Shown here piece by piece: positions 5,178 to 45,380 of a DNA stretch of 46,670 nucleotides (positions are counted from its first letter, which is position 1; each line of letters opens with the position of its first letter). Position numbers and translations under genes: made by a program. Under the pieces are notes generated by a model. It was given only the letters and a program-made list of their open reading frames with translations. It was not told the DNA's origin and made no database searches. This DNA comes from a virus: positions 1 through 46,670 of IMG/VR virus record IMGVR_UViG_3300021477_000001, one strand, 5' to 3'.

Positions 5178-5362
5178 TATTTATTCGCCGCTAGAAACTG
5201 AGCGATTAAAGCCCTTGTGTTATTATTACTCTGCGCGAGAGCGGTATCCAACTGGGCGTCGGTCAATTGACCGTTGGATTTCAGTTGAAGTAAAAACGAG
5301 ACGAGATTTTCAATTCCCGTAATGATAAGACCAATATCGACTGGTGTCATAATTGGACTCAC
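5177..5362 (-). CDS. Small protein with a hydrophobic helix, lysis-region neighbour
   Basis: The 61-residue frame opens at GTG 5362, overlapping the stop of the lipoprotein gene (GTGA), or at an in-frame ATG at 5350. No strong ribosome site is visible for either, so coupled translation is likely. One hydrophobic segment near the N-terminus (DIGLIITGIENLVSFLLQL) is followed by a polar Gln/Asn/Ala-rich tail. The segment contains Glu and Asn, so membrane insertion is uncertain. It could be a small lysis accessory or a short virion protein. Function is unknown. Confidence 0.55.
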   Translation of the reverse strand: MSPIMTPVDIGLIITGIENLVSFLLQLKSNGQLTDAQLDTALAQSNNNTRALIAQFLAANK

Positions 5363-5787: not shown

Positions 5788-6169
5788 CTGGTCCTCCAAG
5801 CTTCGCTGCTGCGGCGATCGAAGCGGTATTTGGATTCGTCCCAACAACCTTATTAAACGCTACCTGATACCAACCCTCTTGCATGACGAATTGTTGAATC
5901 CAGTGCCAAACAATAACGGCCATAACGGAGAAGGAAGGGATGTTTAAGATCAGTTGATATTGATATCCGACTGGAGGAGAACCTTGATTCCAGACCGCTC
6001 CGATTCCAGTATGAACTCCGATCGCAGTTACGATACTGTAAAGGCGTTTCGTCCAAGTGGAACTTTCCTCTGTTAGGAAAGGCCACCACTTCGAGTTCTT
6101 AAGAACTTGAAGTCCATAGGAGGCAACGCCCGCTGCGGTGATTTGAGTTATTTCTACGCTTGAGACCAT
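5756..6169 (-). CDS. Holin-like membrane protein
   Basis: The 137-residue protein has three hydrophobic segments: about residues 5-24, 43-60 (LYSIVTAIGVHTGIGAVW) and 72-93 (LILNIPSFSVMAVIVWHWI). A polar, Ala/Pro-rich C-terminus follows. Size and topology fit class I/III holins, which open the inner membrane at lysis. It lies next to a lipoprotein gene, which supports a lysis module. The ATG at 6169 follows GAGGAG. No sequence motif defines holins, so this is by topology and context. The muralytic partner is not adjacent; the best candidate is the DUF2778 protein at 45373-45753. Confidence 0.6.
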   Translation of the reverse strand: MVSSVEITQITAAGVASYGLQVLKNSKWWPFLTEESSTWTKRLYSIVTAIGVHTGIGAVWNQGSPPVGYQYQLILNIPSFSVMAVIVWHWIQQFVMQEGWYQVAFNKVVGTNPNTASIAAAAKLGGPVAQATPIPKS

Positions 6170-6179
6170 TTTTCTCCTC

Positions 6180-6386
6180 TTAAGAACCTACTGAACCACC
6201 TTCAGTTGGAGGAACTAGATTTTTTCCCTGAGAAGGGGCGCCGCTTTTACCGCTATGAAACCAGGGGTTCTTGTCTTTACGAACTGAGTCGATGTCTTTA
6301 CCAACGCGGGTGCCTTCGGCCCAATCGGACGCTGTGCGACCGAGTTCTGTTCCGACGCTCATAAGACCGCTTAGAAAGTTAGACAT
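6180..6386 (-). CDS. Small hydrophilic protein downstream of terL
   Basis: The 68-residue product starts at ATG 6386, overlapping the large-terminase stop (TAATG), so it is probably translationally coupled. It is Gly/Ser/Lys-rich with no hydrophobic segment or known motif and ends in a Pro/Gly/Ser-rich tail. Function is unknown. Confidence 0.6.
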   Translation of the reverse strand: MSNFLSGLMSVGTELGRTASDWAEGTRVGKDIDSVRKDKNPWFHSGKSGAPSQGKNLVPPTEGGSVGS

Positions 6387-8154: not shown

Positions 8155-8496
8155 TTACGATGGGTAACCAAACTTTCTGAGAAACTTCTTCTTATTCTTA
8201 AGAACGGCACCAACACTTACAACCCACATCGGATTTTCTCTTTGTAAAAGAATTGCGTATAACTTTTCTCGATCATCAGCGGCGTTAGTACTATCTACTC
8301 TACAAAGTATACTTGCTTCTGCAACTCCGTGCTTTCTGGTAAACTTAGCTCCTCTACCACTTTTATGCTGCTCCCAACGTCTATCAACGTCACTTGTCCA
8401 GCCAACGTAATAGAAGTTGGGAGTCAGCGTTTTAATAAGATAAACTGCGTATGGAGTCTCAGCAAACGAGACTCCATCGCTACGCGATTCACTCAT
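8155..8496 (-). CDS. GIY-YIG endonuclease (probable free-standing homing endonuclease)
   Basis: The 113-residue protein starts at ATG 8496, one base after the stop of the preceding gene (TAAAATG), with no clear ribosome site. The GIY-YIG core is readable: YAVYLIK, FYYVGWTSDVDRRWEQHKSG with the catalytic Arg in the DVDRR helix, then AKFTRKHG. Small single-domain proteins of this kind occur as selfish homing nucleases or as repair nucleases. Placement directly upstream of the terminase large subunit, whose start is anomalous, favours a mobile element. The longer frame to 8535 would overlap the upstream gene and has no support. Confidence 0.8.
   Translation of the reverse strand: MSESRSDGVSFAETPYAVYLIKTLTPNFYYVGWTSDVDRRWEQHKSGRGAKFTRKHGVAEASILCRVDSTNAADDREKLYAILLQRENPMWVVSVGAVLKNKKKFLRKFGYPS
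8451..8477 (-). promoter_or_regulatory. Perfect 10-bp hairpin within the first codons of the GIY-YIG gene
   Basis: ATGGAGTCTC (8451-8460) and GAGACTCCAT (8468-8477) form a perfect 10-bp stem with a 7-base loop. In the mRNA it starts about 20 bases after the GIY-YIG start codon. Several phage homing endonuclease genes are known to be translationally restrained by hairpins near the start; this placement would allow the same. Confidence 0.5.
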
Positions 8497-8497
8497 T

Positions 8498-8986
8498 TTA
8501 GACAGGTGTTGAAGCCGAAACCGCAAAGCTAGCAACCGGAGCCGGAGGAGTAACCGACGGTTGGATCGTCAATTGGAATGAACCTGTGGCCGTCGGGATT
8601 ACACCGTCCGTAATGGTATAAGTAACCGTCGTACCCGGAGTTGCGTTAGCGTTTACGACGACGACAAGCGAAAGTCCGTCAGGCGACGGCGTAACCGTCG
8701 CCTGCGTAGAATCGCTCGTTGACCATTGAGGAACATCCCCCGCTGGCAACGTAGTCGGAAGACCGACTGTTGCGGGCGGGATCGGTGCAGCTAGCGGTAC
8801 CGCTGTGAGAGTGGTCGTTTGACCTTGATTAATGTTCATACTTGATTGTCCTTTTGAATTTAAAACCCGAAACGATGAAACATTGTTCCGTGGTGGGAAC
8901 GCCTTACTGAGCAGCGATTTGATGTCATCTAAGACATCCAATATTTCTTCCAGAATTTTTTCTTCTTTATGCCCGAAGAGGTCCAT
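8498..8986 (-). CDS. Ig-like domain protein, possibly with an internal start
   Basis: The 162-residue frame starts at ATG 8986 (TAATG overlap with the preceding stop). The first about 50 residues form an acidic coiled helix (EEKILEEILDVLDDIKSLL). Residues about 52-150 look like a bacterial Ig-like beta-sandwich (WSTSDSTQATVTPSPDG and TPGTTVTYTITDG). Ig-like domains on phage particles usually bind cell surfaces or carbohydrates weakly. An in-frame ATG at 8839 is preceded by TTAAATTCAAAAGGA, nearly the leader found before genes at 13719 and 21334. The Ig domain (about 113 residues) may therefore also be made alone. Virion location is inferred. Confidence 0.65.
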   Translation of the reverse strand: MDLFGHKEEKILEEILDVLDDIKSLLSKAFPPRNNVSSFRVLNSKGQSSMNINQGQTTTLTAVPLAAPIPPATVGLPTTLPAGDVPQWSTSDSTQATVTPSPDGLSLVVVVNANATPGTTVTYTITDGVIPTATGSFQLTIQPSVTPPAPVASFAVSASTPV

Positions 8987-9225
8987 TATTGTGGGTCCCC
9001 ACCTTCGTTCTTAATATCGGTCGTTACGACAGGAGTATTGCAATGAGTTTTCCAGGGGCCCTTCCCGCGGTGAGAACCACCCGGTCCGCGACTCTTAGCT
9101 CCAGCTACGACTTTCGAACGGTTTTCAGCATGTCCTGAAGCGAAGCTAGCCGTGTGAGGATAATCTGGATGATGAAAGGTCTTCCCTGCGTCGATGTGAT
9201 CTCCGCTATCGTGATGTCGGCTCAT
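8986..9225 (-). CDS. Small His/Gly-rich unknown protein
   Basis: The 79-residue protein is His-rich at the N-terminus (MSRHHDSGDHIDAGKTFHHP) and Gly/Ser/Lys-rich centrally, with one Cys. It probably lacks a stable hydrophobic core. The leader contains AACACTTAAGGA before the ATG, a motif shared with the leaders at 29491 and 44095. Metal binding by the His cluster is possible. Function is unknown. Confidence 0.6.
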   Translation of the reverse strand: MSRHHDSGDHIDAGKTFHHPDYPHTASFASGHAENRSKVVAGAKSRGPGGSHRGKGPWKTHCNTPVVTTDIKNEGGDPQ

Positions 9226-9265
9226 GTGAAATCCTTAAGTGTTCAGAGTCTTAATACTTCGGTTT

Positions 9266-23858: not shown

Positions 23859-24059
23859 ATGTCGCAAGCGAATTCTGAGGGCGTGGCTGAATTTATCCGT
23901 TTAGTCGAGGAACTCTCCGAACTCACAGAGGAAATGTCCTCCTACGAACGGAAAATGATCGAAGATTCCTTTGATAGAATCGGTAAATTCGGCGACAAGA
24001 CCTTCGTAACCGAGGTGCAGCTTGACTTTGTTCGGAACCTCTACCGTCGGGTCATGTGA
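23859..24059 (+). CDS. Small acidic helical protein
   Basis: The ATG at 23859 follows GGAGAATAAA. The 66-residue protein is acidic and helical (FIRLVEELSELTEEMSSYER) with a basic C-terminus. It overlaps the next gene by 38 bases. Function unknown; no motif recognised. Confidence 0.6.
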   Translation: MSQANSEGVAEFIRLVEELSELTEEMSSYERKMIEDSFDRIGKFGDKTFVTEVQLDFVRNLYRRVM

Positions 24060-25221
24060 AGGGATTCTTCGAAGCGCGTTAGCTGCTAAGAATCTTAGAT
24101 ATGTTGGTACAAGAGGACCAGTCGGAGCGCCAGTCTGTATCGTAGGCGAGGCACCTGGAAAAGATGAAGACCGTTTGGGCTTCCCGTTCGTAGGTTTCTC
24201 AGGCCAGCTTTTAGATCAAATGCTTTCGGAGGTAGGATTCGATGCCAATAGTGTCTACTTCACCAATCCGTACAAGACAAGACCGCCAGACAATGATATT
24301 AAAAGAATTAGTGAACTTGGAATTGAACTCAATCTTTTCCTCGATCAGTTTCTTGAGGAAATCAGAGCTTCAAGACCTACTATCATTGTTGCGTGTGGCA
24401 AAACACCAACTAATATCCTCTGTCCTGAAACACGACCTAAGTCAAGAGGAAAACAAAACGAAGACAAAGAAGGTTTCGGCTCCTGGAGAGGTTCGCTCTT
24501 AATATCCCCACTTCTTGATTGGCCGCACTACGTGATACCGATGTATCATCCAGCTTTTGTCTTAAGACAGTATTCAGAGAGGGAAATATGCATATTCATT
24601 TTGCAGAGAGCATTCGAGGAACTTACCTTCTGGAAGCAACACTCCCATTTAAACCCACTTCCGAAACGAACTTTAATAGTCAATCCTACTTTCGGAGATG
24701 CCTACGATTTCCTCAGGCTTTGTATTGGTTCGTCAAGTTCTATTTCAGTAGACATAGAACTCCTACGTCGGAAAGTCCCGTATACTATTGCTTTCGCCTC
24801 AAATCCGTGGACCGCGATGTCCCTATCTTTTTGGAACTACAGCCCCATACAGTTGTGTTCTCTGTGGAGAAAAATGGATGAAATTTTTCGAACAAAAGTC
24901 CAAATTGGACAAAATTACACTTCTTTCGATGCTCATTGGCTTCGCGCTCTTGGGTTTAGCGTTAATCTCTCACTCGTTGAGGATACACTTATACGCCACC
25001 ATGTTCTCTGGCCTGGCCTTCGTCATAAGCTTGAATTTCAAGGCTTTCAGTATACGCGCCAACCATATTGGAAAGAAGAGGGCAAAGTCTGGTCTTTAAG
25101 AGAAGGTTTAGAGAGTCTGATGCACTACAACGCGCTTGACGCCGCTTGCACTTACGAAATCTATCTCGAACAGGAGAAAGAATTTGAAGAACGAAAAATT
25201 ACGAGTAGTTCCAGAATCTAA
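24022..25221 (+). CDS. Uracil-DNA glycosylase fused to a DnaQ-like 3'-5' exonuclease
   Basis: The start is TTG 24022 with GAGG six bases upstream. The protein has 399 residues. Residues about 30-200 form a family 4/5-type uracil-DNA glycosylase: GEAPGKDEDRLGFPFVGFSG (42-61) and the HPA motif (176-178). Residues about 215-390 are a PolA-type proofreading exonuclease: Asp244/Glu246 (DIE), a YTSFDAHWL helix (Asp303) and YNALDA (Tyr369, Asp373). The classic four Fe-S cysteines are not all present. The polymerase domain is in a separate gene about 590 bases downstream. It likely proofreads and removes uracil at the fork. Confidence 0.8.
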   Translation: MTLFGTSTVGSCEGILRSALAAKNLRYVGTRGPVGAPVCIVGEAPGKDEDRLGFPFVGFSGQLLDQMLSEVGFDANSVYFTNPYKTRPPDNDIKRISELGIELNLFLDQFLEEIRASRPTIIVACGKTPTNILCPETRPKSRGKQNEDKEGFGSWRGSLLISPLLDWPHYVIPMYHPAFVLRQYSEREICIFILQRAFEELTFWKQHSHLNPLPKRTLIVNPTFGDAYDFLRLCIGSSSSISVDIELLRRKVPYTIAFASNPWTAMSLSFWNYSPIQLCSLWRKMDEIFRTKVQIGQNYTSFDAHWLRALGFSVNLSLVEDTLIRHHVLWPGLRHKLEFQGFQYTRQPYWKEEGKVWSLREGLESLMHYNALDAACTYEIYLEQEKEFEERKITSSSRI

Positions 25222-25573
25222 AGTCGAAAAAATCCTTGAATTCGACGAGCGAATTCGACCGCAGGTAATGAGCGGTTGTAAAACCTATACAATTAGAAAA
25301 GGTCATAGACATTTCGCCCGTAATATTAAGATACATAACCATAACGCCATCGTAAATGGTTATAAACATTACATTCTCCAGACCGTTCCAATGGATATTT
25401 TCGTTTACGAGGGGTTTAAAACTATTTTCGATTTGCTTCGCAAGATGCAAAAGTATTATCCTGATATTAACCTTAATACTCCGGTTACGGTAGTTGAATT
25501 CCGAATTGATGTTGTTAACGAAGGTTCGACGGGAAAGTTTCGTCCTAACTCTAACTTGAGGTATACACTATGA
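25184..25573 (+). CDS. ASCH-domain protein
   Basis: TTG 25184 follows AGGAG and overlaps the 3' end of the glycosylase gene; the longer frame to 25136 is less supported. The 129-residue product has the ASCH core: FDERIRPQVMSGCKTYTIRK, then a beta-rich region. ASCH domains bind RNA or modified nucleotides, and some are hydrolases. In phages they are often near replication genes. The stop overlaps the next start (ATGA). Confidence 0.7.
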   Translation: MKNEKLRVVPESKVEKILEFDERIRPQVMSGCKTYTIRKGHRHFARNIKIHNHNAIVNGYKHYILQTVPMDIFVYEGFKTIFDLLRKMQKYYPDINLNTPVTVVEFRIDVVNEGSTGKFRPNSNLRYTL

Positions 25574-25824
25574 ATCTCACAGATATTCTCCCACTAAACG
25601 GAGATGATCTTCACAAGCTTATTCATCGCAACGAGCCTCCTGAAAGAAAATCTATAGACGCTAGAACGAAGAGGCTAAAACCTTTTGAGGATTACATTAA
25701 AAAATGCTTCTTAGAATGCGGAACATGCACTGATAACCCGCAAGAGGAGTACAAAATTTCGATGGTTACAATCTGTATGATAGATATTATGATCGAGGAA
25801 TATTCGAAACGTGCCCCTCTTTAG
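25570..25824 (+). CDS. Unknown protein between exonuclease and polymerase genes
   Basis: The 84-residue protein starts in an ATGA overlap. It is a helical, Lys/Glu-rich product with three cysteines (KKCFLECGTC). No known domain. It may have been inserted when polymerase and exonuclease became separate genes, or may be a replication accessory. Confidence 0.55.
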   Translation: MNLTDILPLNGDDLHKLIHRNEPPERKSIDARTKRLKPFEDYIKKCFLECGTCTDNPQEEYKISMVTICMIDIMIEEYSKRAPL

Positions 25825-27253
25825 CTCATTGCAGGATTTTTGTAACCTATATGAAATGCCCCTCGCCAGGGTCTTTCACGAAATCGACCGTCGTGGAATT
25901 ATGGTCGATGCTACAAGGTTAGAAGCATTCGTCAAGATGCTCGACGCAAGACTGGAGATATGTTGTCAAAAAATAGAAAGCGCCGTAAAACTAAAAGTCG
26001 TAGCAAAGCAGCCAAAAGGCGAGAAGACGCCAAAAGGCACGCTAAATCTTTCATCTCCTACTCAGTTAGTGTCCATGCTGACGGGCTTAGGGATCAAATT
26101 AAAAACTTCTTGGCAGACAGGGAACCCTACATCGAATGAGGAGGCCTTAAATGAAGCATACGCGAAAACAGGAAACCAAGTCCTCCGAAATATCCTCGAA
26201 GCAAGAGAATATAACAAACTTAAAGGAACTTATGCAGAAGCTGCGCTCCTTGATGGAATACTCTATTCCAGTTGGAACGTATCTGGGACTGTTAGCGGAA
26301 GGCGTTCTTCCGGATCAACAATATTCCAATCTTCAAGCGGTAAAAAGATCGGCACAAATACCCAGAACTTACCTAAACAATCCGAGCTTGGTCGAAGCTT
26401 TCGAGAATGCCTTGTTGCTCGACCTGGCAGAATCTTTGTCTCCTGTGACCAGGCTCAAGCTGAGGACTGGATTGTCTCTGGACTCATCGCTGATAACGGT
26501 GGTGGAACAAGGGGACTTGACGAGCTTACTCAGAGAGTCGATCGCCACCGTAAACTCGCGTCGAAAATTTTCAAAAAGCCAGAAAGCGAATGCTCCAAAG
26601 GAACGATGTTGAGATTTATGGGAAAGAAAACCCGCCATGCTGGTAATTATGGCGAAGGACCTGGTATGATGGCAACTTCGTTAATAAAGGAAGTCCCAGA
26701 CGCAGTTGAACAAATGTCCCGAGATGGAAAACTGATCCCCTATTGTGAGGTTCTTCTAAATGCCTTCCACGAAAATGAACCAGAAATACGAAATACATTT
26801 CAAAATTACGTTGAATCAGAGCTTCGGCGTTGCCGAACTCTCAAAACGCCAATCGGAAGAGAGCGTTACTTCTTTGGCCTTAGACCTGGCGCCGATAATA
26901 GTAAATTATTTAAAGAGGCTTTCTCCTACATACCTCAATCCACAGTTGGGGATAACACCGGACTCAGTATCTTATTTTGTGAAAAGAACTCCCCTGGACT
27001 CGTCCTTCTCGACGGACATGACAGTATTACGCTCGAATCGGAAGATTCTGAAGAAGAAATTAGAAACTCCATTGAGCTTCTCAAAAAAGCATTCGACCGA
27101 AAATTAATCTTCCCAAATGGGACGGAAGTAAAAATTCCAGTTGAAGTGGAAATTGGATATGATTTGATGAATGAGGTCGAATGTCCCGAAAGCTCAATGA
27201 CTGGCTTGCAACCTATGTTACGTACACTACGCCTTCAAGCGAAGCGCCTTTAG
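25811..27253 (+). CDS. Family-A DNA polymerase, polymerase domain only
   Basis: The 480-residue protein starts at GTG 25811, overlapping the preceding gene. It has thumb, palm and fingers but no exonuclease domain. Motif A is VSCDQAQAEDW (Asp213), motif B is GKKTRHAGNYGEG with a Tyr-Gly after Asn279, and motif C is DGHDS (His403, Asp404). Motif C has Ser where most family members have Glu (VHDE). The proofreading domain is in the separate glycosylase fusion. It is the likely replicative polymerase. It overlaps the DUF3987 gene by 73 bases. Confidence 0.85.
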   Translation: MPLFSSLQDFCNLYEMPLARVFHEIDRRGIMVDATRLEAFVKMLDARLEICCQKIESAVKLKVVAKQPKGEKTPKGTLNLSSPTQLVSMLTGLGIKLKTSWQTGNPTSNEEALNEAYAKTGNQVLRNILEAREYNKLKGTYAEAALLDGILYSSWNVSGTVSGRRSSGSTIFQSSSGKKIGTNTQNLPKQSELGRSFRECLVARPGRIFVSCDQAQAEDWIVSGLIADNGGGTRGLDELTQRVDRHRKLASKIFKKPESECSKGTMLRFMGKKTRHAGNYGEGPGMMATSLIKEVPDAVEQMSRDGKLIPYCEVLLNAFHENEPEIRNTFQNYVESELRRCRTLKTPIGRERYFFGLRPGADNSKLFKEAFSYIPQSTVGDNTGLSILFCEKNSPGLVLLDGHDSITLESEDSEEEIRNSIELLKKAFDRKLIFPNGTEVKIPVEVEIGYDLMNEVECPESSMTGLQPMLRTLRLQAKRL

Positions 27254-34460: not shown

Positions 34461-34916
34461 TTAAGCTACCTTCCATTCTAGAGAATCCAGAAGACGCTTC
34501 TCATCCTCTCGTTCTCTTTCATGTGGGCAGTAACCTCTCATACCAAGAGAGAAATTGCAGTTTATACACAAAACTCGATAGGATTTAGTGATATCAATTC
34601 CATTTTTCCTCTCGTCTAGGATATGTCTATAAAGAGTAAAATCGTACATTCCCTTTTCATGTGATTTTCTTCCGTTAATATGATCTAGTGTAAGAAACTC
34701 ATCTCTAATCTCACCGCAGCACTGACATAAAGGTTTATTATTTCCACAGAGAAGAACGAAAACCATCCTTCTCATATTAGCGGTATTAGTTTTCTGATAA
34801 TCGTGCATACATATCTTGCACCAAATTTTATGTCTTTTTCTATTAGCTCGATCTAACTGACTCTTAAAATAGTCTTCGTCAGGTTTATTTACATTACATC
34901 TACCGCAAATGTTCAT
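34461..34916 (-). CDS. HNH endonuclease (probable homing endonuclease)
   Basis: The ATG at 34916 overlaps the adaptor stop (ATGA); the longer frame has no support. The 151-residue protein has a zinc site CGRC plus CKIC at the N-terminus, a CQCCGEIRDEFLTLDHINGR core with the HNH catalytic His (LDHING), and CINCN plus a final Cys-free end. It is a free-standing HNH protein, typical of homing elements in phage late regions. It sits between adaptor and ejection genes. Confidence 0.8.
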   Translation of the reverse strand: MNICGRCNVNKPDEDYFKSQLDRANRKRHKIWCKICMHDYQKTNTANMRRMVFVLLCGNNKPLCQCCGEIRDEFLTLDHINGRKSHEKGMYDFTLYRHILDERKNGIDITKSYRVLCINCNFSLGMRGYCPHEREREDEKRLLDSLEWKVA

Positions 34917-35668
34917 TGTGCCCCCCAAACGTAAGGCCGCCTTATATAAGACAGGCGGGATTCTTGTCTCCATTGTTCTTTTCTACGTTTACGCTTCGCG
35001 TGAAATAAAAGCCCTGGTTGATTCTTATTATCTGGATCACCATAAAGAAATGTGTGAACGGAAGCGGCTTTCTCATATTCCATTAACTCTTGAAACCCTC
35101 TTTGAACGGCGGCCCAAATGAGAATCTCATTCCAATCTCTTGGAAGGAGGATTAGTGTTTGAGCTAAAACATTATCATTTATGGGATGCATCCGACAGAG
35201 ACGGGCCTGAACTTGGTAATTTTTATCTGGAATCGGGTTAAATCCAATGGTTCCACCAAATCTATACCATTCTGTCGGAATAGAAAAAACTGGTTGAAAC
35301 TTATCCGTTTTCTGATAATGTGAAACATCGAGCTTCCTTCGATCGTTATTCGCAGGATAGTCGATCCAGATTAGAATATCCAAAAACGCATTATTAACAT
35401 CCCCTCCTGGGATTAAGCTCGCTTCGGGATATTCTTGAATCGCCGTCGAAAGACTATTACCTCCGGTTAAATTGAACAAAGGTCCGAGTTCCTCAAGTTC
35501 TTGGAAGTCGTCTCGATAGTCTGGATTTGAGGCTATTTCTAACAACGAATCCCGAATCCAAATCGCTGCGCGGGCGGTGTCCGTTGTTCGATTCTCACAT
35601 CGAATGAGAACCTCAGGAACTAGATCATTTATATAGAACTGAATCCCACTTGGAGTTAAAACTGGCAT
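34913..35668 (-). CDS. Probable head-tail adaptor
   Basis: The 251-residue protein resembles podovirus adaptor proteins that sit under the portal. It has an N-terminal helical part, a beta-like domain with SIPTEWYRFGGTIGFNPIP, then LLPRDWNEILIWAAVQRGFQ and a basic tail (AKRKRRKEQWRQESRL). The LLPRDWxxxLxxxAAxR motif is typical of the gp4-like adaptors. The ATG follows GGAG. Family assignment is by motif memory, not a search. Confidence 0.6.
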   Translation of the reverse strand: MPVLTPSGIQFYINDLVPEVLIRCENRTTDTARAAIWIRDSLLEIASNPDYRDDFQELEELGPLFNLTGGNSLSTAIQEYPEASLIPGGDVNNAFLDILIWIDYPANNDRRKLDVSHYQKTDKFQPVFSIPTEWYRFGGTIGFNPIPDKNYQVQARLCRMHPINDNVLAQTLILLPRDWNEILIWAAVQRGFQELMEYEKAASVHTFLYGDPDNKNQPGLLFHAKRKRRKEQWRQESRLSYIRRPYVWGAQ

Positions 35669-35676
35669 TTAATCTC

Positions 35677-37245
35677 CTATGGCCAAATAATCGAAGATGG
35701 CATAATACCACCAGTCCCAGAAGGAGCATTTATCGCACCGACGGTCCAAGCTCCACTTGGGGGGCGGCCATTTCCATTAATATCAGAACAAAGAGGGATA
35801 AGGTTCCCACTACAAAGACTCGTTAAATTAACTCCAACACCGATGAGCCCCGAACCAGCGTTAGGAACTCCTGTACTACTATTAACTCCAAGACTGGTCA
35901 ACTTATTTCCATGCGAATCTCCTCCACATGAGGATTGCCAATTAGCAAACGTCGCATCGTTCGTAGCCCCACAGACCCAAGGGGAATTTCCGCTAGTCCC
36001 GATAGCACCATAAAAGTTATAATCTAAAGTCGTAAACGTAGCCGTCGAACCTGTTACAACGTATTGGCCGTAATTTTCTGTAGCATTATTCTCAGAGATA
36101 ATAGTAGTACCATAATAATCAATCGCCTCAACATTGCTACCAGTGGTAGAACATCCAAGAAACGTATTATCAGCAAATAGCGAGAATCCAGAGCCAGAAT
36201 TTTGAGTTCTGGTAGTTATTGGAGGATTTGAATTAAGACATTGTTGAATGGCAACATTATTAAAAACATTCAAACTCGCTGGAGGAGCTACCTCGATAAA
36301 AAGGAAATTTGATGTCGTACAGCAGGTACCCCAATTCCCATCTGAACGATTGTTATAAATATATGTTCCAGTAGAATCCGAAGACGTGTTCATATAACTG
36401 TGAACACAGTTATGATGAAAAACATTTCCAGTTGTATCCCAATTTGAACCGTCATGGCAATGATTATTGTTAAAAAATAGTGTGCGAGTACCATTTCCAC
36501 TATACTCAAGTGCCCAGTTATTATGCCATAGCTCGTTGTTATAAATTTTAATCGTTGTCGAATTAAAATGCTCCATAGAGATAGCGTTTCCAGTATCGTG
36601 TATATCATTATCGTGTATTAATATATTTCCGGTACAAGCAGTAGCTGCCGATGAGCATTGAAAAATGAAACTTCCACTATCTGCACTAGATGTGCTGTCA
36701 GACATGGACGTATGCTGATAAAGATTACGAATAATTAGATTACGAATCTCAATATCATGGCATCCGGAACAACCCTCAAACGCTTGAGTAGTTACCGACT
36801 GATGAGCAAGTCCTGATCCATTAGCTGTAGCTTCAACAATTCCTGTTATCCCAGAAGGATATCCTGTGGGATTAGCAGCCTCAGTAGTGTAGCAAGTAGT
36901 CCCTGGACCACATGGTGTCCCACCATCGAAAAGAAGATACCCCTGGCTATTGACATTAATAAGAGGTCCAAACGCAGCACTTACTGCGGATGCTAGTTCC
37001 CACTTAAATATGAGTGGATTCCCTAACGAACCAGATCCAAGTATTGAAAAAGGACCGACAAATCCACAAAGATGAATTGTGTTTCCACCAATCTCTTCTC
37101 CTACTGTTAGAGAGCTTACTGCCCTTGCATCTAAACAATCTGCTCCAGTATTACCACCAGCAGAGGACTGGGCAACATAGATATTAGCCGCCATCGCTGG
37201 GGTAGCAATGAATAGTAAAATTAGAATAATAAATTTCAACCTCAT
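35677..37245 (-). CDS. Exported Cys-rich parallel beta-helix protein
   Basis: The 522-residue protein starts in an ATGA overlap and begins with a Sec signal peptide (MRLKFIILILLFIATPAMAA, AxA cleavage). Residues about 170-440 show repeated short strands with stacked Asn and hydrophobics (ILIHDNDIHDTGNAISMEHF, TTIKIYNNELWHNN), as in right-handed beta-helix lyases and tailspikes. I count 18 Cys in the mature part. Such cysteines and an export signal are unexpected for a cytoplasmically assembled virion protein. It may be a secreted depolymerase or a surface-acting factor. Confidence 0.7.
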   Translation of the reverse strand: MRLKFIILILLFIATPAMAANIYVAQSSAGGNTGADCLDARAVSSLTVGEEIGGNTIHLCGFVGPFSILGSGSLGNPLIFKWELASAVSAAFGPLINVNSQGYLLFDGGTPCGPGTTCYTTEAANPTGYPSGITGIVEATANGSGLAHQSVTTQAFEGCSGCHDIEIRNLIIRNLYQHTSMSDSTSSADSGSFIFQCSSAATACTGNILIHDNDIHDTGNAISMEHFNSTTIKIYNNELWHNNWALEYSGNGTRTLFFNNNHCHDGSNWDTTGNVFHHNCVHSYMNTSSDSTGTYIYNNRSDGNWGTCCTTSNFLFIEVAPPASLNVFNNVAIQQCLNSNPPITTRTQNSGSGFSLFADNTFLGCSTTGSNVEAIDYYGTTIISENNATENYGQYVVTGSTATFTTLDYNFYGAIGTSGNSPWVCGATNDATFANWQSSCGGDSHGNKLTSLGVNSSTGVPNAGSGLIGVGVNLTSLCSGNLIPLCSDINGNGRPPSGAWTVGAINAPSGTGGIMPSSIIWP

Positions 37246-38405
37246 CTTAGACCTCTACAGTTAATAGTCGCAGCGCCAGGAGTAATCGAACCGCTTGTAT
37301 CGTTTATTTGATCGACATTTATCGTATTCGTAGAAACCCAAGTTTTAAGTGAAAGCCCTCCACTAGCGGAAGGAGCATAACCAACAACCGCATTTGTGTC
37401 ACTATTAAAGGAGCATGAAATGGAATCAGTCGAAGTACTAAGTCCGGTACAAGTAAGGGTATTTGTTGCACGCGCCCCAGAACCTATAGCCCCAGTTGTT
37501 AGAGCTATCTGACCGCTACAAATCTCATTCGCAACATTAATCCACGCAGTTCCCTCAGGAGCTCCTAAACCAGCAATTCCAAGAGCCTGCCCAAGGGCAG
37601 TCGGGTTAGCTGTTGGAAGGGCAACCCCATTAGGACTCCCTGCTGTAGCTGCTACTGTCCAGCAAAAACTTCCAGAAGATCCACCTTGGTAACAGGTTTG
37701 AGCAGAATTTCCACCGTCGTTACGAATTGTAAGAGTATTAGGAATAGAAAAACTCGTTTGAGTTCCTGTAGAAGAATTCCAAGTCCAATGAAGCTCTCTG
37801 GATCCTCCGGTTAATAAATCTTGAACCGTCCAGTTATCAGTGACAGAAGAAGATCCGTTCCAGACATTTCCTGTTAATTGAATTACAGGAGAACTTTGAT
37901 TAAGAATATTAGTTGCTAAAATCGGGTTATTAAGAAAAAGAGTAGAACCATTCCACGTAAAGTTTCCGCTCGAACTTACGGTATTAACTCCACTCCCGAC
38001 AGCAACTTGGTTATTTGCAACCGAACCTCCAATCGTACCTCCTCCACCTCCGCCAAGTGTAACTTGATTACAAGTTCCATTAACTCCAGCTCCCGTTATG
38101 CAGACGGTATAATTGCCGCTTGCGGCAATGAAATTAAAATTTCCATTCGCATCCGCGTTAAATGGATTTGAAATCGAATTGGTTAAAGCGAAATTACTAA
38201 AAAGCGTACCTCCAAGTGCAGGAGCACAGGGAGGAGGACTCGTCCATCCGCTAGCGCAGACCGTTATTAAAGCGGAAGCAACGACACGAACATTTCCGTT
38301 TGAATTATAGAAGGCAATATCGTGATAGGCTACGCCCTGAGCGTTCGCTTTTGAAGCGAAGCTTAGAAGTGTTAAGAATGTAAACAGATATAAAATCTTT
38401 TTCAT
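37242..38405 (-). CDS. Exported Cys-rich protein, beta-rich
   Basis: The start is ATG 38405 in a TAATG overlap, after GAGG. The 387-residue product begins with a Sec signal peptide (MKKILYLFTFLTLLSFASKA, then NAQ). The mature part has a carboxypeptidase-regulatory-like beta-sandwich (NPFNADANGNFNFIAASGNY), a Gly-rich linker and a beta-rich C-terminus, with 10 cysteines by my count. The middle resembles fibre-type repeats. Domain order suggests an exported surface-active protein. Confidence 0.65.
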   Translation of the reverse strand: MKKILYLFTFLTLLSFASKANAQGVAYHDIAFYNSNGNVRVVASALITVCASGWTSPPPCAPALGGTLFSNFALTNSISNPFNADANGNFNFIAASGNYTVCITGAGVNGTCNQVTLGGGGGGTIGGSVANNQVAVGSGVNTVSSSGNFTWNGSTLFLNNPILATNILNQSSPVIQLTGNVWNGSSSVTDNWTVQDLLTGGSRELHWTWNSSTGTQTSFSIPNTLTIRNDGGNSAQTCYQGGSSGSFCWTVAATAGSPNGVALPTANPTALGQALGIAGLGAPEGTAWINVANEICSGQIALTTGAIGSGARATNTLTCTGLSTSTDSISCSFNSDTNAVVGYAPSASGGLSLKTWVSTNTINVDQINDTSGSITPGAATINCRGLR

Positions 38406-40774
38406 TATTGTAACCTCACCCATTTACATCCACCTGCGGTGTTGCTTGTTAAAACGGAGCTTAGAATTGCAACTGCGTTCGTGGTTAGTGTTGTACTTCC
38501 AACAAAAGTCTCAGAGTTAAAAACCGTTAGGGTTGAAGACGATCCGTTTATATTCCAAAGATTTACGTTTCTTCCAACCCAATCAAGACAGCTTGAAAGA
38601 AGAAAAATCCCTCCGTTATTCAAAATTGCGTAGTTATCAGCTTGCTGAAGTTGCTCGCCTTGGCAGGTCCCCTGCACGGTAATCGGCCCCAAACCCGTCG
38701 TGCCGTTGTAAGCCGTGACTGTCGTTCCACCGTTCGTAAGGATTTGCCAAACGCCGTTATAGCCTGCGGGAGTGATACCCGCGCAAACCATGCGAGTCCC
38801 TACCACAAACGTAGCCGCCGTCCACCCAGCAGAAGTAAATGTCATCGTGTTCGTAGATTCAGTGCCAGCAGTCGTTGCAATCGCCGCCGCCCCTGCCGAG
38901 GAGTAGGTGTTCGCCGCTCCGAAGCTCCAGTTTCCGTACAGGCTGTTCATTGCCGCCTGCACCAAGACCGAGACATTGTTGTAGGAGCACGCAGTGGTGT
39001 AATGGGTCTGGTCGCCGAGATAGCAAACACCCGTTGCCGCATTGCCTGGAGCGAAGTTCATATCTGCCGCGATATCGATCACCATGTCGGCGTAGCCGTT
39101 CGCGACAAATTGACGCGTTAAAGGATTCACATTTTCGGCGAAGGTAAAAGCGCTTGATCCACGTGCGATCATCGTCATCAGCGCGCATTTGGCCCCGAGT
39201 TGGTGGACCAGGGTGCAGAATTTTCTTTGGTTCCCTGCCGTCTGCGCCGCCGTTAAGGTCCCTGAATCGTTCGTGCCTTCCCAGTAGTTGAAAAGTGAAA
39301 GCTGTGCCGATGAACGGTAAAATGCCGGAATGATGACGGGGAAGTTACTTATCAACGTGCTAGTCTGCTGCCCGGATACCCCACGAACGCCGGTCACTAG
39401 GGAATTGTTGAGGGTTAGAAGGGTGGGGTAGGCTACGGAACCTCCGGGCGAGGCGGTCAGCGAATCGCCAACATCAATGGCGTAGCTAACTTGATCCGTT
39501 CCGCCCACGCTAACAGGGAAACCGTTGCCCGCTTCTATGGCGGACATCCCGGCGTAATCAGTGGTCACTTGCGGCGCGGTGAGCGCGGCGCTAAAGAATC
39601 GTACCCAGTAGACCGTCATCGTCAGGTAGGTTGAGCTGGCAAATCCAGAGCCTGCGGCTGCCCCGCAAATCTGGAAATTATTTCCGGTATCTACGCCCAG
39701 CGTGCCCGAGTTTTGAACGAGCTGGCTGGACTGCTGGCCGTTCAGGTAAATCGCGTCCGCGCTTGATCCCTTGACCCAGGTTATGAGTCCGGTTCCATTG
39801 AACGCATTCTCATAGGCTTCGCCGAATCCGCCGTTTTTGAATGCTCCGATGTCAGGGGCACCAGTGTTTACCGGCCCCAGAAACGCGTTGCTTGTATCAG
39901 CGAGAATGCCACTTGTGTTTGCAGTCCCTCCGCCTCCATTATTTATGATAATCGCCCTCTGTTGCAGTGCGCCAATATTAGAATATTGAACGCTAACATA
40001 CATTTCAATCGTAACGACACTCGTTGTGATTGAAGTCGGAACCGTAATGTACTGACTACTACCAGAAGTACAGGTAACGCCGCCACCATTAGCCCCGACA
40101 ACCCAAGCAGGTGCATTGACGAGAGTTAACGGACCGCTATGACCAGATACGTCTATATCAGTTGTCCCAGAACCTTCAGTAAAGCGATAATCTCCGATTA
40201 TGTTTGTATTAGTCAGTATCGGAGATCCGATTATCCCAACCCCACCAGCAGGTCCCCAAGTACATGGAGAAGGGGCGTTACAGACACGTTGTTGATTAGT
40301 AATTGTATTATAATAGGTTGATCCAATAACTGCGCCTGAAATTTCAGCATCATTATAAGCCAGACTATTCGTAGCTGAGGGAGAAGGGAATACAACAGGA
40401 GGTGGTGGAGTTAGAGTAACCGATTGATTAGATGTAGTAATACTTACAAACTGATTAAAACAACCAGAGGTAGCCAGAGGACAAACGGTAAAATACCACG
40501 TACTTGGAGTAGGAGCGATGCTCGTATTCGTGGTTAGAGTTATAGAGGCTCCACCTGTGGTACTTAGAGTTCCGTTCTGTGTAGGATTTGGGACAGGATT
40601 TCCGTTAGTTCGTAACTGAGAAACGGAGAACCCATTCGGAGGCGTAAGCTGAACCGCCCATGTTCCGCTATTCCACGTTTGCGATGAGGTATCAGTAACC
40701 TGCAAGGTTACCTGGGCTTTTGCAAAGCATGGAAAAAGCAGAAGTGAAGCTAAAGCTAGAAGGAGTTTTTTCAT
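38405..40774 (-). CDS. Exported LamG plus SGNH/GDSL hydrolase protein
   Basis: The start is ATG 40774 after GAGG. The 789-residue protein begins with a Sec signal peptide (MKKLLLALASLLLFPCFAKA). Residues about 193-408 look like a LamG/concanavalin-like sandwich (YRFTEGSGTTDIDVSGHSGP start). Residues about 430-600 hold the SGNH triad: GDS (436-438), GTND (500-503), and DxxH (588-591). The enzyme would deacetylate or esterify a surface glycan. I count 14 Cys in the mature part. DNA for residues about 280-710 is more GC-rich than its flanks, indicating domain replacement. Confidence 0.75.
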   Translation of the reverse strand: MKKLLLALASLLLFPCFAKAQVTLQVTDTSSQTWNSGTWAVQLTPPNGFSVSQLRTNGNPVPNPTQNGTLSTTGGASITLTTNTSIAPTPSTWYFTVCPLATSGCFNQFVSITTSNQSVTLTPPPPVVFPSPSATNSLAYNDAEISGAVIGSTYYNTITNQQRVCNAPSPCTWGPAGGVGIIGSPILTNTNIIGDYRFTEGSGTTDIDVSGHSGPLTLVNAPAWVVGANGGGVTCTSGSSQYITVPTSITTSVVTIEMYVSVQYSNIGALQQRAIIINNGGGGTANTSGILADTSNAFLGPVNTGAPDIGAFKNGGFGEAYENAFNGTGLITWVKGSSADAIYLNGQQSSQLVQNSGTLGVDTGNNFQICGAAAGSGFASSTYLTMTVYWVRFFSAALTAPQVTTDYAGMSAIEAGNGFPVSVGGTDQVSYAIDVGDSLTASPGGSVAYPTLLTLNNSLVTGVRGVSGQQTSTLISNFPVIIPAFYRSSAQLSLFNYWEGTNDSGTLTAAQTAGNQRKFCTLVHQLGAKCALMTMIARGSSAFTFAENVNPLTRQFVANGYADMVIDIAADMNFAPGNAATGVCYLGDQTHYTTACSYNNVSVLVQAAMNSLYGNWSFGAANTYSSAGAAAIATTAGTESTNTMTFTSAGWTAATFVVGTRMVCAGITPAGYNGVWQILTNGGTTVTAYNGTTGLGPITVQGTCQGEQLQQADNYAILNNGGIFLLSSCLDWVGRNVNLWNINGSSSTLTVFNSETFVGSTTLTTNAVAILSSVLTSNTAGGCKWVRLQ

Positions 40775-40782
40775 CTTAATCC

Positions 40783-41340
40783 TCAGTTTATAGTTACCAG
40801 CAATACCCACCCAGCGGGAATAGACTGTAAAGTCAAACCATCAACCCACATAACCTTTCCACGATTCTGAGAGCCCGTCGGGGCAGTAGACGGAAGCTGA
40901 GCTTCCCAAACTATGTTACCATTTCGATCAGAAACAAGAAGAAGACCAGCAGTTGGAGTTGCAGAAGTTGCCTGAATTGACATATCCTCTGCTCTTACCA
41001 TCTGTTGAACTGTGTTAACAAAAACAGATCCTCCACCATCACCAGCGAGAACTGTGTTAAAGGGTTGACCATTTGCAGGGGAGGAAATATTTGTAAGTAA
41101 TGCTACTGTTGCTGATACGATTCCAGCAACCTTATAAAGACCGATAAATCTTCCGTTCGTAGTTCCAAGAATCATAACATACTGACCAGCTGATAGACCA
41201 TGAGCGCCAGTAGTAGTTAGAGTCACAGTTCCAAGAGCCGGTGCTCCAGACTGAACGAGTCCGTTAGGGGACGCTGTCGGTGTAACCGCTGCAACAACAT
41301 CAGCAGAGGTAAAACTCCATGGATTCGAAGAGATGTTCAT
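40783..41340 (-). CDS. Tail/fibre-associated protein, beta-rich
   Basis: The 185-residue protein starts at ATG 41340 after AGGAG. It is Thr/Gly/Ala-rich with short strands (TTTGAHGLSAGQYVMILGTT) and ends with a DGLTLQSIPAGWVLLVTIN strand set. No motif marks enzymatic activity. The position after the nozzle gene and upstream of the SGNH protein fits a fibre or adhesin component. Confidence 0.5.
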   Translation of the reverse strand: MNISSNPWSFTSADVVAAVTPTASPNGLVQSGAPALGTVTLTTTGAHGLSAGQYVMILGTTNGRFIGLYKVAGIVSATVALLTNISSPANGQPFNTVLAGDGGGSVFVNTVQQMVRAEDMSIQATSATPTAGLLLVSDRNGNIVWEAQLPSTAPTGSQNRGKVMWVDGLTLQSIPAGWVLLVTIN

Positions 41341-41349
41341 TTTAATCTC

Positions 41350-41748
41350 CTAGATGATAAACAAACTCATAGCCGCATGAGCAGCGGAGCTTCTTAAGGT
41401 AATCTGTGTCTTAGTAGCGGAAACGCTTCCTGTATAAATATCCGTCGCTATGCTTGCGGTCATGGTAATATAGCCAACAGGAATCCTACCAAGATTATGA
41501 GTAATAGTAAAGTCCGTATTAGCCAAACCTGTATCAGGGACAGTGGCCCAGAAGCCGTTGATGTTATCAAGGTTTGTACCGTCTCCAAATCCGATTTGAC
41601 CTTTTAAAACATAAGCTAGTTGTTGCCAAAGAACTTGAAGCATCCCAGCGAATTTCGCAAGTTGAATGTTCCATGAAGGAACGGTCTTCGTCTTCGGATC
41701 CCGAACTTGCGAAGGTAAGAACTGAAAGTTTGGAGTTATTTGTGACAT
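41350..41748 (-). CDS. Small tail protein
   Basis: The 132-residue protein starts in a TAATG overlap with the nozzle gene. It has a helical N-terminus (SWNIQLAKFAGMLQVLWQQL) and a C-terminal strand-rich part with THNLGRIPVGYI, a motif common in phage fibre-linked domains. Virion role is inferred from location. Confidence 0.55.
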   Translation of the reverse strand: MSQITPNFQFLPSQVRDPKTKTVPSWNIQLAKFAGMLQVLWQQLAYVLKGQIGFGDGTNLDNINGFWATVPDTGLANTDFTITHNLGRIPVGYITMTASIATDIYTGSVSATKTQITLRSSAAHAAMSLFII

Positions 41749-43367
41749 TAATTTCCATCAGCGGAACCACCACGCTGTTCACCTGTGATTTCGTAAATCG
41801 GACAAAATTCAATCATATCCGAAGGAGCGCCCGCAGGCCCGGAAACTTTCCACTGTAACCGTAAACCAGTTATGTTGAATTCCACAACTTGAGAAAGAAC
41901 ATCCCCGCTTCCGCTTCCAAGCGTAAAAGTCTGACTTTGGGAAAAACCACGTTCATTCGTTATAGTTATCGTGTAGGTAACTGGGCCATTATCTATAACA
42001 ACCAAACGAAACTTCTTTATAACATGGCTATGCCTTCTATCCCCAAAGGTATGTTTCGCAGAAACGACTTGCCATCCGACTTCGCTCCGATTGGTAAAAT
42101 CAACATAACCTACGGTTCCATCTGAGAAACCGAACGCAATCCCTGGCATCTGAAGCGTCGCTGCGAGCGTTGCTGGGGACCAAAATTGCTGTAAAATTGA
42201 ACCTGAAAGGTCTTCAATTCTTAAAACATTCGATCTTTGAAAGTTATCTAGAACCAAAGGTGTCTTAGAATATTGGAAGGGGGTCCAATTTTCCTCATCT
42301 AAATTATAAACCCAAACCGCAACATTCGGGATGATGAGCCAATAAGCATTGAAGATTTCGCCAGCTATGGCATTAGTAACGAAACCCCAGGTGTTCGTTA
42401 GACCTCCGGCTTTAAGATCGGCCATAATTCTGGAACGGGCACCGATTCTCTTATGCCCGTCGATCGGATGATCCCCAATAGGAACCATCGAGCTTTGATT
42501 GAAATTGTAAACATTATCCGATGCAACTAAGATAGCTTGTTCTTGACCTTCTCGATTAAAGTTATCAAGAGATTTAAGGGCGATTTCTCCAATATATGAG
42601 TTTATAATAGGGAGAAAATAGAACGGCGCAGTTCCAACCCCAGTTGGGATAACCTGAACAACTCCCTGATAATGGAAGCCATATCCATATTGACCGAGTT
42701 TTATGATACCGTTTATCGGGCCAAGATTGTTAAGATTATCATTTAACCCTGCGTTAAACGAAGTCCAATCCGTCGGATCCCCAGCTCCGCTCCATCTATA
42801 CCGCTGTGGAAAGGCTACGCCGCCCTCAACTGTGTTTCCAGTCATAAGGTGAAGATCAATTTCAGCCATCGCGTTACATGCTGGAGCGTTAGCGGAGCTA
42901 AGAACATACGTTCCGGCTATGCCATCCCAAGTTAAAACTTGATTCGTTCCTTGAGAAAAGCAAAGCTTATATCCGAGGATATCCCAATTCCAAACTTGCG
43001 TCGTACCTCCGGTAAGAGCAGGACCTGTTATCTGAGTCCAACTTCCTGGGGTCCCAGGAATCCACTGAAATAATCTTGTCGGAGTTATCGCGCATTGAAT
43101 ATCAACTCCGTTAGAGTTAAAGAATCCAGGAAACGCTAGCGCAGCTTCGTTAAACGGGGCTGTCGGCCATGCAGGCAGCGCAGTAAAACCAGGTCGAACA
43201 GAGGCTTTTCCTTGACGAAACAAAATATTCGTCGAATCATAGAACCCATAAGGTTCTATCTCAGTAAGAGGTAATTCACTTTGAACCCCGCCGAACGGCC
43301 CGGTTATCGGCCATTCAGGAAGTTCCTCTTGTTGAGTTATAAGCTTTCGATCTGGTATACCAGTCAT
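41748..43367 (-). CDS. Tail hub/nozzle protein (P22 gp10-like)
   Basis: The 539-residue protein is beta-rich throughout. Segments such as RYRWSGAGDPTDWTSFNAG, LVASDNVYNFNQSSMVPIGD and NAYWLIIPNVAVWVYNLDEE are typical of podovirus nozzle propeller proteins that plug the tail below the adaptor. Length fits gp10-like and tail tube B proteins (about 470-550). It has four cysteines. No ribosome site is obvious before the ATG. It supports short-tail morphology. Confidence 0.7.
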   Translation of the reverse strand: MTGIPDRKLITQQEELPEWPITGPFGGVQSELPLTEIEPYGFYDSTNILFRQGKASVRPGFTALPAWPTAPFNEAALAFPGFFNSNGVDIQCAITPTRLFQWIPGTPGSWTQITGPALTGGTTQVWNWDILGYKLCFSQGTNQVLTWDGIAGTYVLSSANAPACNAMAEIDLHLMTGNTVEGGVAFPQRYRWSGAGDPTDWTSFNAGLNDNLNNLGPINGIIKLGQYGYGFHYQGVVQVIPTGVGTAPFYFLPIINSYIGEIALKSLDNFNREGQEQAILVASDNVYNFNQSSMVPIGDHPIDGHKRIGARSRIMADLKAGGLTNTWGFVTNAIAGEIFNAYWLIIPNVAVWVYNLDEENWTPFQYSKTPLVLDNFQRSNVLRIEDLSGSILQQFWSPATLAATLQMPGIAFGFSDGTVGYVDFTNRSEVGWQVVSAKHTFGDRRHSHVIKKFRLVVIDNGPVTYTITITNERGFSQSQTFTLGSGSGDVLSQVVEFNITGLRLQWKVSGPAGAPSDMIEFCPIYEITGEQRGGSADGN

Positions 43368-44099: not shown

Positions 44100-44126
44100 T
44101 CCTTAAGTGTTTACAGTCTGAACGCT
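44100..44126. repeat. 27-bp repeat, copy A (25 of 27 identical to 29500-29526)
   Basis: This copy overlaps the 3' end of the ATP-grasp gene (encoding SVQTVNT and stop) and the ribosome site of the fibre gene. It matches 29500-29526 at 25 of 27 positions. Confidence 0.75.
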
Positions 44127-45380
44127 AAAGGCGCGTTTAAGTTTCCTCATATCGCTCTTAAAAGTTTCCGTCAAATCATTCCGATATTGCTTGTCAGGAA
44201 GTTTTAGCTTATCGCAAAATTTATACGCTTCATTAAAGGCATCTTCGACATTCGACGCATAGCCTACGGCTACTCCAATTATACCAACACCACCGCTAGT
44301 TTTAAACTCTCCTCCGAATTCAGATACTTCATAAGGGTAGAACTTTTCGAGATTATTTCTAGACAATCCGCGTAGCGGTAGGCCTTCTTTAGATTTATAA
44401 TTTTCGTTAGGCCAGGGCGGGGTCGAAACCCTAACTCCCGCAGCAAAGCCGCTTCTGAGCGGCATGTTAAACGGCCCATTGCCCTTGGCACAATCGGAGA
44501 TAAACCCTCCGAAGTCCCCGTCAAAGAGACCGTATAACAACGTGGGGAATGCATCATATCCAAATCTGGGCGTAAATTCGAGAGCATAAATGTTACCTTC
44601 TTTATCTACGACGGAGTTGATGTCGATGCAACCATTGTAAGAATTTTTTCTAAGAAACTCACCAAGCTTTCCAAGGTTCCGGCATAGAGGACAGTTCCAG
44701 TCCTCGCATCGCCAAACAACATTTCCGGTGCACCCGCCTGATGGCCCAATATCACCACACATGAGTTGTTTACGTTCGAGCGTATGATTCGTGGGCTGGA
44801 TGAAATGATCTTTGGCATACCATGCCTCACTTGAAATACAGGTACCTTCTATAAACTCTTGTAAAACAAACGACGGATCGTTTTCACCAATAATCCCCTT
44901 AGCATGATGAAGATAATCGAGAATATCATCACTGCCACTAGAAACATAAGAGGGGACAGTACCGGAGAATTTACCTTCCGGCTTAAAAACGAGACGAACT
45001 TCGTTAGAAAGTTCGTTGATGAAATTTTCGGCCTCCTCCCATGAGGTGAATTCCTTGGAGTCGGGTTCTTGAATTCCGCATTCTTTGAAAACCTGAGAAG
45101 CGAACTTCCTATCCGATTCTAATTTATCAGCGATTTGGCTTCCTCCGAAAGTAAATGCACCATTTTCTCTAAGAAGATCAAGGGCCGATCCTGAACCAGT
45201 ACAATCGCCAATAGCGATAGAACCAAAAGAAGGAAGAGTGGCCTTTTCAACGAGATTTTCTCCTCGTTTATCGAGATCAGGGTCTTTAATCATCATGGAG
45301 ACTTTATGTCCTTCGGATTGCAAACGAATGGCCAAGCCGAGACCATCTCCTCCTTCGGAGATAATAAAGAAGTTACTCAC
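44103..45380 (-). CDS. PurD-like ATP-grasp ligase, altered active-site motifs
   Basis: The 425-residue protein starts with GTG 45380 after GAGG and overlaps the DUF2778 stop by 8 bases. Its length and domain order match GARS (PurD, about 430). An N-terminal fold opens FFIISEGGDGLGLAIRL, then the ATP-grasp core has HTLERKQLMCGDIGPSGGC, the analogue of the HKRxxDGDxGPNTGGMG loop, and ALEFTPRFG, the analogue of EFNxRFGD. Thr replaces the metal-binding Asn, and GYDAF replaces GDPE. A C-x4-C-x2-C set (225-233) is extra. It probably ligates a different amine or carboxylate; the product is unknown. Confidence 0.75.
   Translation of the reverse strand: MSNFFIISEGGDGLGLAIRLQSEGHKVSMMIKDPDLDKRGENLVEKATLPSFGSIAIGDCTGSGSALDLLRENGAFTFGGSQIADKLESDRKFASQVFKECGIQEPDSKEFTSWEEAENFINELSNEVRLVFKPEGKFSGTVPSYVSSGSDDILDYLHHAKGIIGENDPSFVLQEFIEGTCISSEAWYAKDHFIQPTNHTLERKQLMCGDIGPSGGCTGNVVWRCEDWNCPLCRNLGKLGEFLRKNSYNGCIDINSVVDKEGNIYALEFTPRFGYDAFPTLLYGLFDGDFGGFISDCAKGNGPFNMPLRSGFAAGVRVSTPPWPNENYKSKEGLPLRGLSRNNLEKFYPYEVSEFGGEFKTSGGVGIIGVAVGYASNVEDAFNEAYKFCDKLKLPDKQYRNDLTETFKSDMRKLKRAFSVQTVNT

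Follow-up and report, generated by a model that had tools for sequence, protein, structure and literature searches.

Three Consecutive Late Genes with Predicted Export Signals

The IMG/VR virus record IMGVR_UViG_3300021477_000001, from a soil virus that infects bacteria and analyzed here over its whole length of 46,670 nucleotides (the window), has ends that are identical over 127 nt, looks complete, and carries podovirus-like late genes on its minus strand. Three consecutive late genes on that strand, designated here g3, g2, and g1, encode proteins that are predicted to be exported: g3 (38405..40774) a LamG and SGNH hydrolase-like tail protein of 789 aa, g2 (37242..38405) a tailspike-like protein of 387 aa, and g1 (35677..37245) a cysteine-rich, probably beta-helical protein of 522 aa. 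An earlier reading of the same DNA (the original prediction) had described these genes as coupled stop to start, and this is what we find: g3 starts 8 nt past the preceding stop codon, g3 and g2 overlap in TAATG, g2 and g1 overlap in ATGA, and a purine-rich ribosome-binding stretch stands before each of the three. For g2 we prefer as start the ATG at 38405, which lies six codons into the longest open reading frame (ORF).

All three products begin with the n-, h-, and c-regions and the AxA-type cleavage motif at 15–35 residues that characterize substrates of Sec and signal peptidase I. The leaders, all encoded on the minus strand, are MKKLLLALASLLLFPCFAKA^QVTL for g3 (20 codons, 40715..40774, cut AKA^Q), MKKILYLFTFLTLLSFASKANA^QGVA for g2, read from the ATG overlapping the stop codon of g3 (22 codons, 38340..38405, cut ANA^Q), and MRLKFIILILLFIATPAMA^ANIY for g1 (19 codons, 37189..37245, cut AMA^A), in line with the AxA-type cleavage proposed originally. 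They were evaluated with a home-made signal-peptide scorer, which combines the charge of the n-region, the hydropathy of the h-region, and the residues at −3 and −1 with a small bonus for the +1 residue; eleven exported proteins of Escherichia coli served as positive controls, and shuffled and phage proteins as negative controls. With scores of 12.0 (g3), 11.0 (g2), and 12.3 (g1), these are the only 3 of the 64 genes in the window within the range of the E. coli controls (9.8–12.7, n = 11), as their description as three consecutive late genes with clear Sec signal peptides would have it. The highest score was 6.4 among the other 61 genes and 9.2 among 1280 shuffled proteins, which rules out hydrophobic N-termini that arose by chance. 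The scores without the +1 bonus were 11.7 for g1, 10.4 for g2, and 11.4 for g3, and the chance of three random genes out of 64 being adjacent is about 0.0015 (62 of 41664 triples). Wrong start codons are likewise ruled out: leaders, starts, and spacing are kept in a close relative (see below). The prediction that g1–g3 carry Sec signal peptides with AxA-type cleavage motifs is confirmed by this analysis of the sequence.

Behind the predicted cuts, the products of g1, g2, and g3 hold 18, 10, and 14 cysteines. Our recount, which excludes the cysteine in the g3 leader, agrees with the numbers first reported, as it does for the capsid protein (225-1178), which has none, and for a nozzle-like protein (41748-43367), which has four.

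Domain Content of the Three Proteins

The LamG-like and SGNH region of g3 spans residues about 190–612 (38939..40207, minus strand) and is recognized by its motifs and by the Pfam matches of a homolog, gp342 of phage Tunturi_5. The two proteins are 29% identical over 514 columns, and gp342 matches Lipase_GDSL_2 (PF13472; 1.4e-22) and Laminin_G_3 (1.8e-8); g3 itself has no Pfam match to the SGNH/GDSL hydrolase family. The catalytic blocks of the SGNH fold are intact in g3 (GDSL at 436, GTND at 500, and DQTH at 588) and conserved in the close relative. This homology and these motifs support the folds originally assigned to g3. A PDB sequence search with g3 gave no match, and an AlphaFold2 model from a two-sequence input was unusable (mean predicted local distance difference test score of 30).

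For g2, the structure model has high confidence in the leader helix and in residues 23–118 (38052..38339, minus strand), being reliable only over residues 1–118, so that the beta-sandwich first attributed to the protein as a whole stands for its N-terminal 96 mature residues only. The sandwich starts right after the cut and is like the head-binding domains of tailspikes. Its best matches in BFVD are phage spike proteins, with E values down to 5e-7, and those with names include pectate-lyase spikes and an exopolysaccharide depolymerase. Structure matches of residues 28–126 in the PDB comprise the Pan3 tail complex (Z 8.8), the Pam1 tail machine (7.6), and the P22 and Sf6 tailspike head-binding domains (about 7); a PDB sequence search with a g2 profile gave no match. 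The modeled fold supports, but does not prove, that the N-terminal domain of g2 is a docking domain.

No Pfam family was matched by g1 and three homologs, and the parallel beta-helix that had been proposed for g1 is plausible from its sequence. Cysteine columns change as pairs among the four g1 homologs (291/308, 462/477, 515/523, and 369/399). The phage contig L028 encodes a leaderless g1 homolog; in this leaderless phage, the C-terminal domain of g2 occurs twice within 2901-7512, once in a cysteine-free gene, together with the g1 homolog and in the same order. The Pfam and profile matches of g1–g3 include no lysozyme, amidase, peptidase, or CHAP family, which sets them apart from exported endolysins.

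The Tail Operon and a Close Relative

The genes g1–g3 lie within a tail operon that is the same in a close relative, IMGVR_UViG_3300050821_001247 (L002). It should be noted that the labels nozzle, adaptor, capsid, and ejection protein are based partly on gene position. Upstream of g3, all on the minus strand, are the gene for the nozzle-like virion structural protein (41748-43367; phrog_3287, E 2.6e-14), a gene for a 132-aa tail protein (41350-41748), and, immediately before g3, a gene for a 185-aa protein (40783-41340), in the same gene order in L002; downstream of g1 follows a gene for a 251-aa protein (34913-35668), named only tentatively as tail- or adaptor-like, with a match to phrog_10775 at E 0.14. 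The identities between window and L002 are 86% for the nozzle, 92% for the 132-aa protein, 99% for the 185-aa protein, and 96% for the 251-aa protein.

The g3 ortholog of L002 is 89% identical and keeps all 15 cysteines. In g2, the leader and the first 110 residues match (61%) and the rest is replaced, and g1 is absent from L002, so that g1 and g2 are loci of gene turnover between the two genomes. A conserved N-terminus, a replaced C-terminus, and gene turnover together form the pattern shown by receptor-binding proteins. L002 also has an extra small gene upstream of the nozzle (8893-9264), with the leader MKKIIILILLFVPSLTTA^QTT, a fibronectin-III-like sequence, and two cysteines, for which the window has no counterpart.

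Distribution among Other Phages

Viral contigs scanned for close relatives of g2 gave no match, and neither did 50,697 phage records queried by tblastn with the nozzle-like protein, g1, and g2. A scan based on the DNA pattern of the g2 module (NPFxADxxGN[FY]) returned, from viral contigs, 14 loci, 8 of which contain the same nozzle gene. The leader stands directly before the module in 10 of the 14; in the other four (L011–L014), leader and module are fused in frame behind the homolog of the window's 132-aa tail protein, and no stop codon intervenes. Either the signal sequence is internal here, or the spike has been joined to the tail. The fusion, at 6127-6486 in L011 and at the matching places in L012, L013, and L014, lacks a usual start codon (TTG in L014). 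The same scan of the genomes of 84,980 species gave three matches, of which one is real, on a contig with phage-like neighbors of a Bryobacterales (Acidobacteriota) metagenome-assembled genome, and the other two are chance frames.

A second module, the fiber module PAAPSGxxNVxWQ, follows a leader in 13 ORFs, of which 11 exceed the score threshold, L172 scores 8.2, and L097 has an unreadable start. Another 23 ORFs have the module but, owing to a stop codon or a short start, no space for a leader. The cut falls immediately before the module, which is N-terminal in the leaderless proteins. The clusters with a leader have 12, 14, 14, and 22 cysteines, a median of 1.9% of residues, versus a median of 0.37% for the 20 leaderless clusters (p 0.007). 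The leader-bearing ORF of L142, cut short at 381 aa, has 9 cysteines. Mature cysteine counts were even in 26 of the 27 complete leader-bearing proteins with at least two cysteines, the exception being the g1 homolog in L027; the binomial probability is 2e-7 if the proteins are taken as independent, and some of the 27 are related. Among non-exported ORFs with at least four cysteines, 36 had even and 31 odd counts.

With g3 as the query, the search reached Tunturi_5, a myovirus that infects the acidobacterium Tunturiibacter and in which all of gp337–342 have signal peptides (the cut of gp342 being the least certain) and four of them are annotated as tail fiber or virion structural protein. Tunturi_2, a podovirus isolate from the Acidobacteriota, has leaders on gp12, 13, 14, 16, and 17. 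Tunturi_3, a podovirus of the same host strain as Tunturi_2, and the siphovirus Tunturi_4 have no tail-gene leaders in their first 50 kb, and Tunturi_3 thereby rules out a property imposed by the host. Nor are leaders a general property of tail fibers: of 53 ORFs with the fiber motif MQAATKQYVD and a readable frame, 5 have one. One of the leader-bearing copies lies in the tail operon of L135, two genes after a tape-measure-like gene; the order of its genes is why L135 is taken as siphovirus-like. Phages of Q-rule hosts do not carry such leaders in general either: the Bacteroidota phages crAss001 (first 50 kb), FCL-2, and B124-14 lack them on their tail genes. Judged from these sequences, the trait appears uncommon on tail genes, yet spans three tail types (podo-, myo-, and siphovirus-like). 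The main text of the paper describing the Tunturi isolates does not mention signal peptides (PMC11924767).

Correspondence with the Host

The +1 residue is glutamine in 21 of 32 phage leaders (alanine in g1 of the window), and glutamine is also the commonest +1 residue in our Acidobacteriota genome samples (23 of 67 leaders). These counts, from a small sample of our own, indicate an enrichment but remain below the 71% mean of the Bacteroidetes (PMC5837995), the phylum covered by the published Q-rule, in the main text of which Acidobacteria are not mentioned (PMC5837995). In the Acidobacteriota samples (L030–L088), glutamine often follows the signal peptide, from 3/9 to 6/12 in four of the five well-sampled genomes and 2/16 in one. 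Glutaminyl cyclase (PF05096) was present in 15 of the 60 Acidobacteriota genomes sampled, and VKOR, one route to periplasmic disulfides, in 20. The g3 homolog in Tunturi_5 and the g2 module in the Bryobacterales contig are hints to the host, with no direct link for the window itself; the host of the window virus is probably a diderm, an acidobacterium.

Other Genes of the Window

The remaining large late genes, all on the minus strand, encode a terminase (6386-8017), a portal/head–tail adaptor (3255-5177), the capsid protein, the nozzle, an ATP-grasp-like protein, and three cysteine-free proteins that look like ejection proteins (33371, 32039, and 29559). By elimination this suggests g1–g3 as the spike candidates, there being no large non-exported spike gene remaining in the tail operon.

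The ATP-grasp-like protein (44103-45380; by eye of the phosphoribosylglycinamide synthetase type) has 11 cysteines and is encoded among structural genes. An HNH endonuclease ORF (34461-34973; phrog_2255) lies between tail genes, overlaps the gene for the 251-aa protein by 61 nt, and is not present at the corresponding place of L002. The product of 8155-8535, which adjoins the large terminase gene, resembles a GIY-YIG endonuclease. The DNA polymerase (phrog_17) is seemingly split into 24022-25221 and 25811-27253, which match the consecutive profile parts 481–831 and 839–1242 and are separated by the small ORFs 25136-25573 and 25570-25824. The gene at 5359-5847 encodes an internal lipoprotein-type leader (LSLILTGCSS) and may code for a spanin of the outer membrane; this would agree with a diderm host.

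Discussion

According to the usual teaching, tailed phages assemble their tail fibers in the cytoplasm. That cytoplasmic assembly would not see exported proteins, as pointed out in the original prediction, is the puzzle posed by g1–g3; it does not prove a role outside the virion. The explanation we favor, with an even chance of being correct, is that g1–g3 are tail spikes or fibers that are exported by Sec, become oxidized in the periplasm, and dock to particles at lysis or later. These receptor-binding and glycan-processing proteins would be made with cleavable signal peptides and exported to the periplasm of a diderm host, the signal peptidase I of which would cut the leaders, mostly before glutamine. 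The mature spikes would fold there with disulfide bonds and presumably trimerize, particles would be assembled in the cytoplasm without them, and docking via the N-terminal module would take place when the envelope breaks at lysis, or later.

Export and oxidative folding are supported by the anatomy of the leaders, by a cleavage pattern like that of the host, and by even cysteine numbers that change in pairs across many phages. The original prediction had offered several roles; of these, joining particles after lysis is favored by the comparative evidence over receptor stripping, capsule degradation, or superinfection blocking by a free protein, for two reasons: other phages have these modules in their tail operons, sometimes leaderless and sometimes fused to a tail protein, and the tail operon of the window has no other large spike gene. 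Several observations speak against docked, exported spikes. CnaB/pilin and carboxypeptidase domains equal the Z values near 7 of the g2 domain. The leaderless g1 homolog in L028 retains 16 cysteines, so these cysteines do not require a leader. Where leader and module are fused to the tail protein, a leader behind about 110 residues may be nonfunctional, and the cysteine count after it is odd in L011 and L014. Tunturi_3 manages without leaders on the host strain of Tunturi_2, and the main text of the isolate paper reports no proteomics (PMC11924767).

The main alternative, in our judgment about half as likely, is that the exported proteins act free of the virion, trimming or masking the glycans of the infected cell or of its neighbors and so promoting progeny release, reducing readsorption to debris, or blocking superinfection. 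The leaders and cysteines of g1–g3 would suit such proteins, as would the glycan-type folds with the intact SGNH catalytic set of g3, and there is a precedent in WceF of Pantoea stewartii, an exported bacterial enzyme with a tailspike fold and a P22-like head domain that acts on exopolysaccharide (PMC7949094). Since WceF keeps this domain, having a tailspike head domain is no proof that a protein docks to virions, which counts against our explanation too. A free role sits poorly with modules that leaderless tail proteins also have (L028 and the 23 PAAPSG ORFs) and that in L011–L014 are joined to a tail protein, with the number of these late proteins, three to six per phage and many of large size, and with a tail operon that offers no further large spike candidate. 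More improbable still is that the hydrophobic N-terminus does not serve export, the protein staying in the cytoplasm and the segment anchoring the spike in the tail or entering the host membrane during infection. This would agree with the cytoplasmic assembly of tailed-phage virions and with the fusion in L011–L014, which places the hydrophobic stretch within a tail protein; the positive n-region, the h-region, the AxA-type c-region, and the +1 glutamine match the host pattern instead, the cut lies exactly before the module that is N-terminal in leaderless relatives, and the cysteine counts are even. That the leaders are functionless remnants of genes for secreted host proteins, which phages would have captured recently, seems very improbable: host secreted proteins do have the same kind of leader, but the leaders are kept between the orthologs of the window and L002 and in about ten divergent module-bearing phages, where the module is conserved and the C-terminal parts are replaced, and the only real match of the module among the 84,980 species' genomes has phage-like neighbors.

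Compared with known systems, g2 has what marks a P22-type tailspike (a tail-operon gene, a conserved N-terminal module, and an exchanged C-terminal part) as well as, like P22/Sf6-type tailspikes, a predicted N-terminal beta-sandwich, and g1–g3 share their glycan-active folds, as far as sequence indicates. To our knowledge, tailspikes described so far lack a signal peptide and are not cysteine-rich; in contrast, the proteins of the window have a predicted cleavable leader before the N-terminal domain and even-numbered cysteines. The spike parts are known already and the proposed export is what is new. WceF, a trimeric protein active on glycans, likewise has a P22-like head domain that directly follows a signal peptide, but this is a Tat signal and the gene is part of a chromosomal exopolysaccharide cluster, whereas g1–g3 are phage late tail-operon genes with Sec-type leaders. 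Similar, too, are gp12–17 of Tunturi_2 and gp337–342 of Tunturi_5, with runs of Sec leaders in the tail region cut mostly before glutamine and even cysteine counts in the large proteins; their domain sets are different, but gp342 has LamG and SGNH in common with g3. Exported endolysins such as Lys44 of fOg44, with true cleavable signal peptides, show use of host Sec by a phage before lysis (PMC6116005); these too are late proteins with leaders, but as lysis enzymes they need no docking to particles. Phages of Porphyromonas gingivalis carry five Q-rule leader genes of unknown function (PMC10367356), which expose an N-terminal glutamine as in their host but are not described as tail fibers and belong with a different host phylum. 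A precedent for adding fibers to finished particles is given by the long tail fibers of T4, which attach to fiberless particles (PMC3004832). Full-text literature searches, with most subscription journals outside their scope, found no description of tail fibers that are Sec-exported or bear signal peptides; what comes nearest there is the exported endolysins and the Q-rule genes of the Porphyromonas phages.

Extending this beyond the window, we propose tentatively, and with somewhat less confidence than for g1–g3, that some phages of soil bacteria, of podo-, myo-, and siphovirus types, build receptor-binding proteins outside the cytoplasm, by Sec export followed in the periplasm by disulfide formation and perhaps pyroglutamate capping, and dock them on unfinished particles. 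A leader and even cysteine numbers on tail genes provide a simple sequence marker for this class, and isolates for direct testing exist (Tunturi_1, Tunturi_2, and Tunturi_5). If the proposal is true, virion assembly would be split across two compartments and finished at or after lysis, and with spikes exported and oxidized beforehand, lysis would be an assembly step too. The stability of the spikes would then depend on disulfides and on the oxidizing enzymes of the host, and in mixed infections spikes could be exchanged between particles in the lysate.

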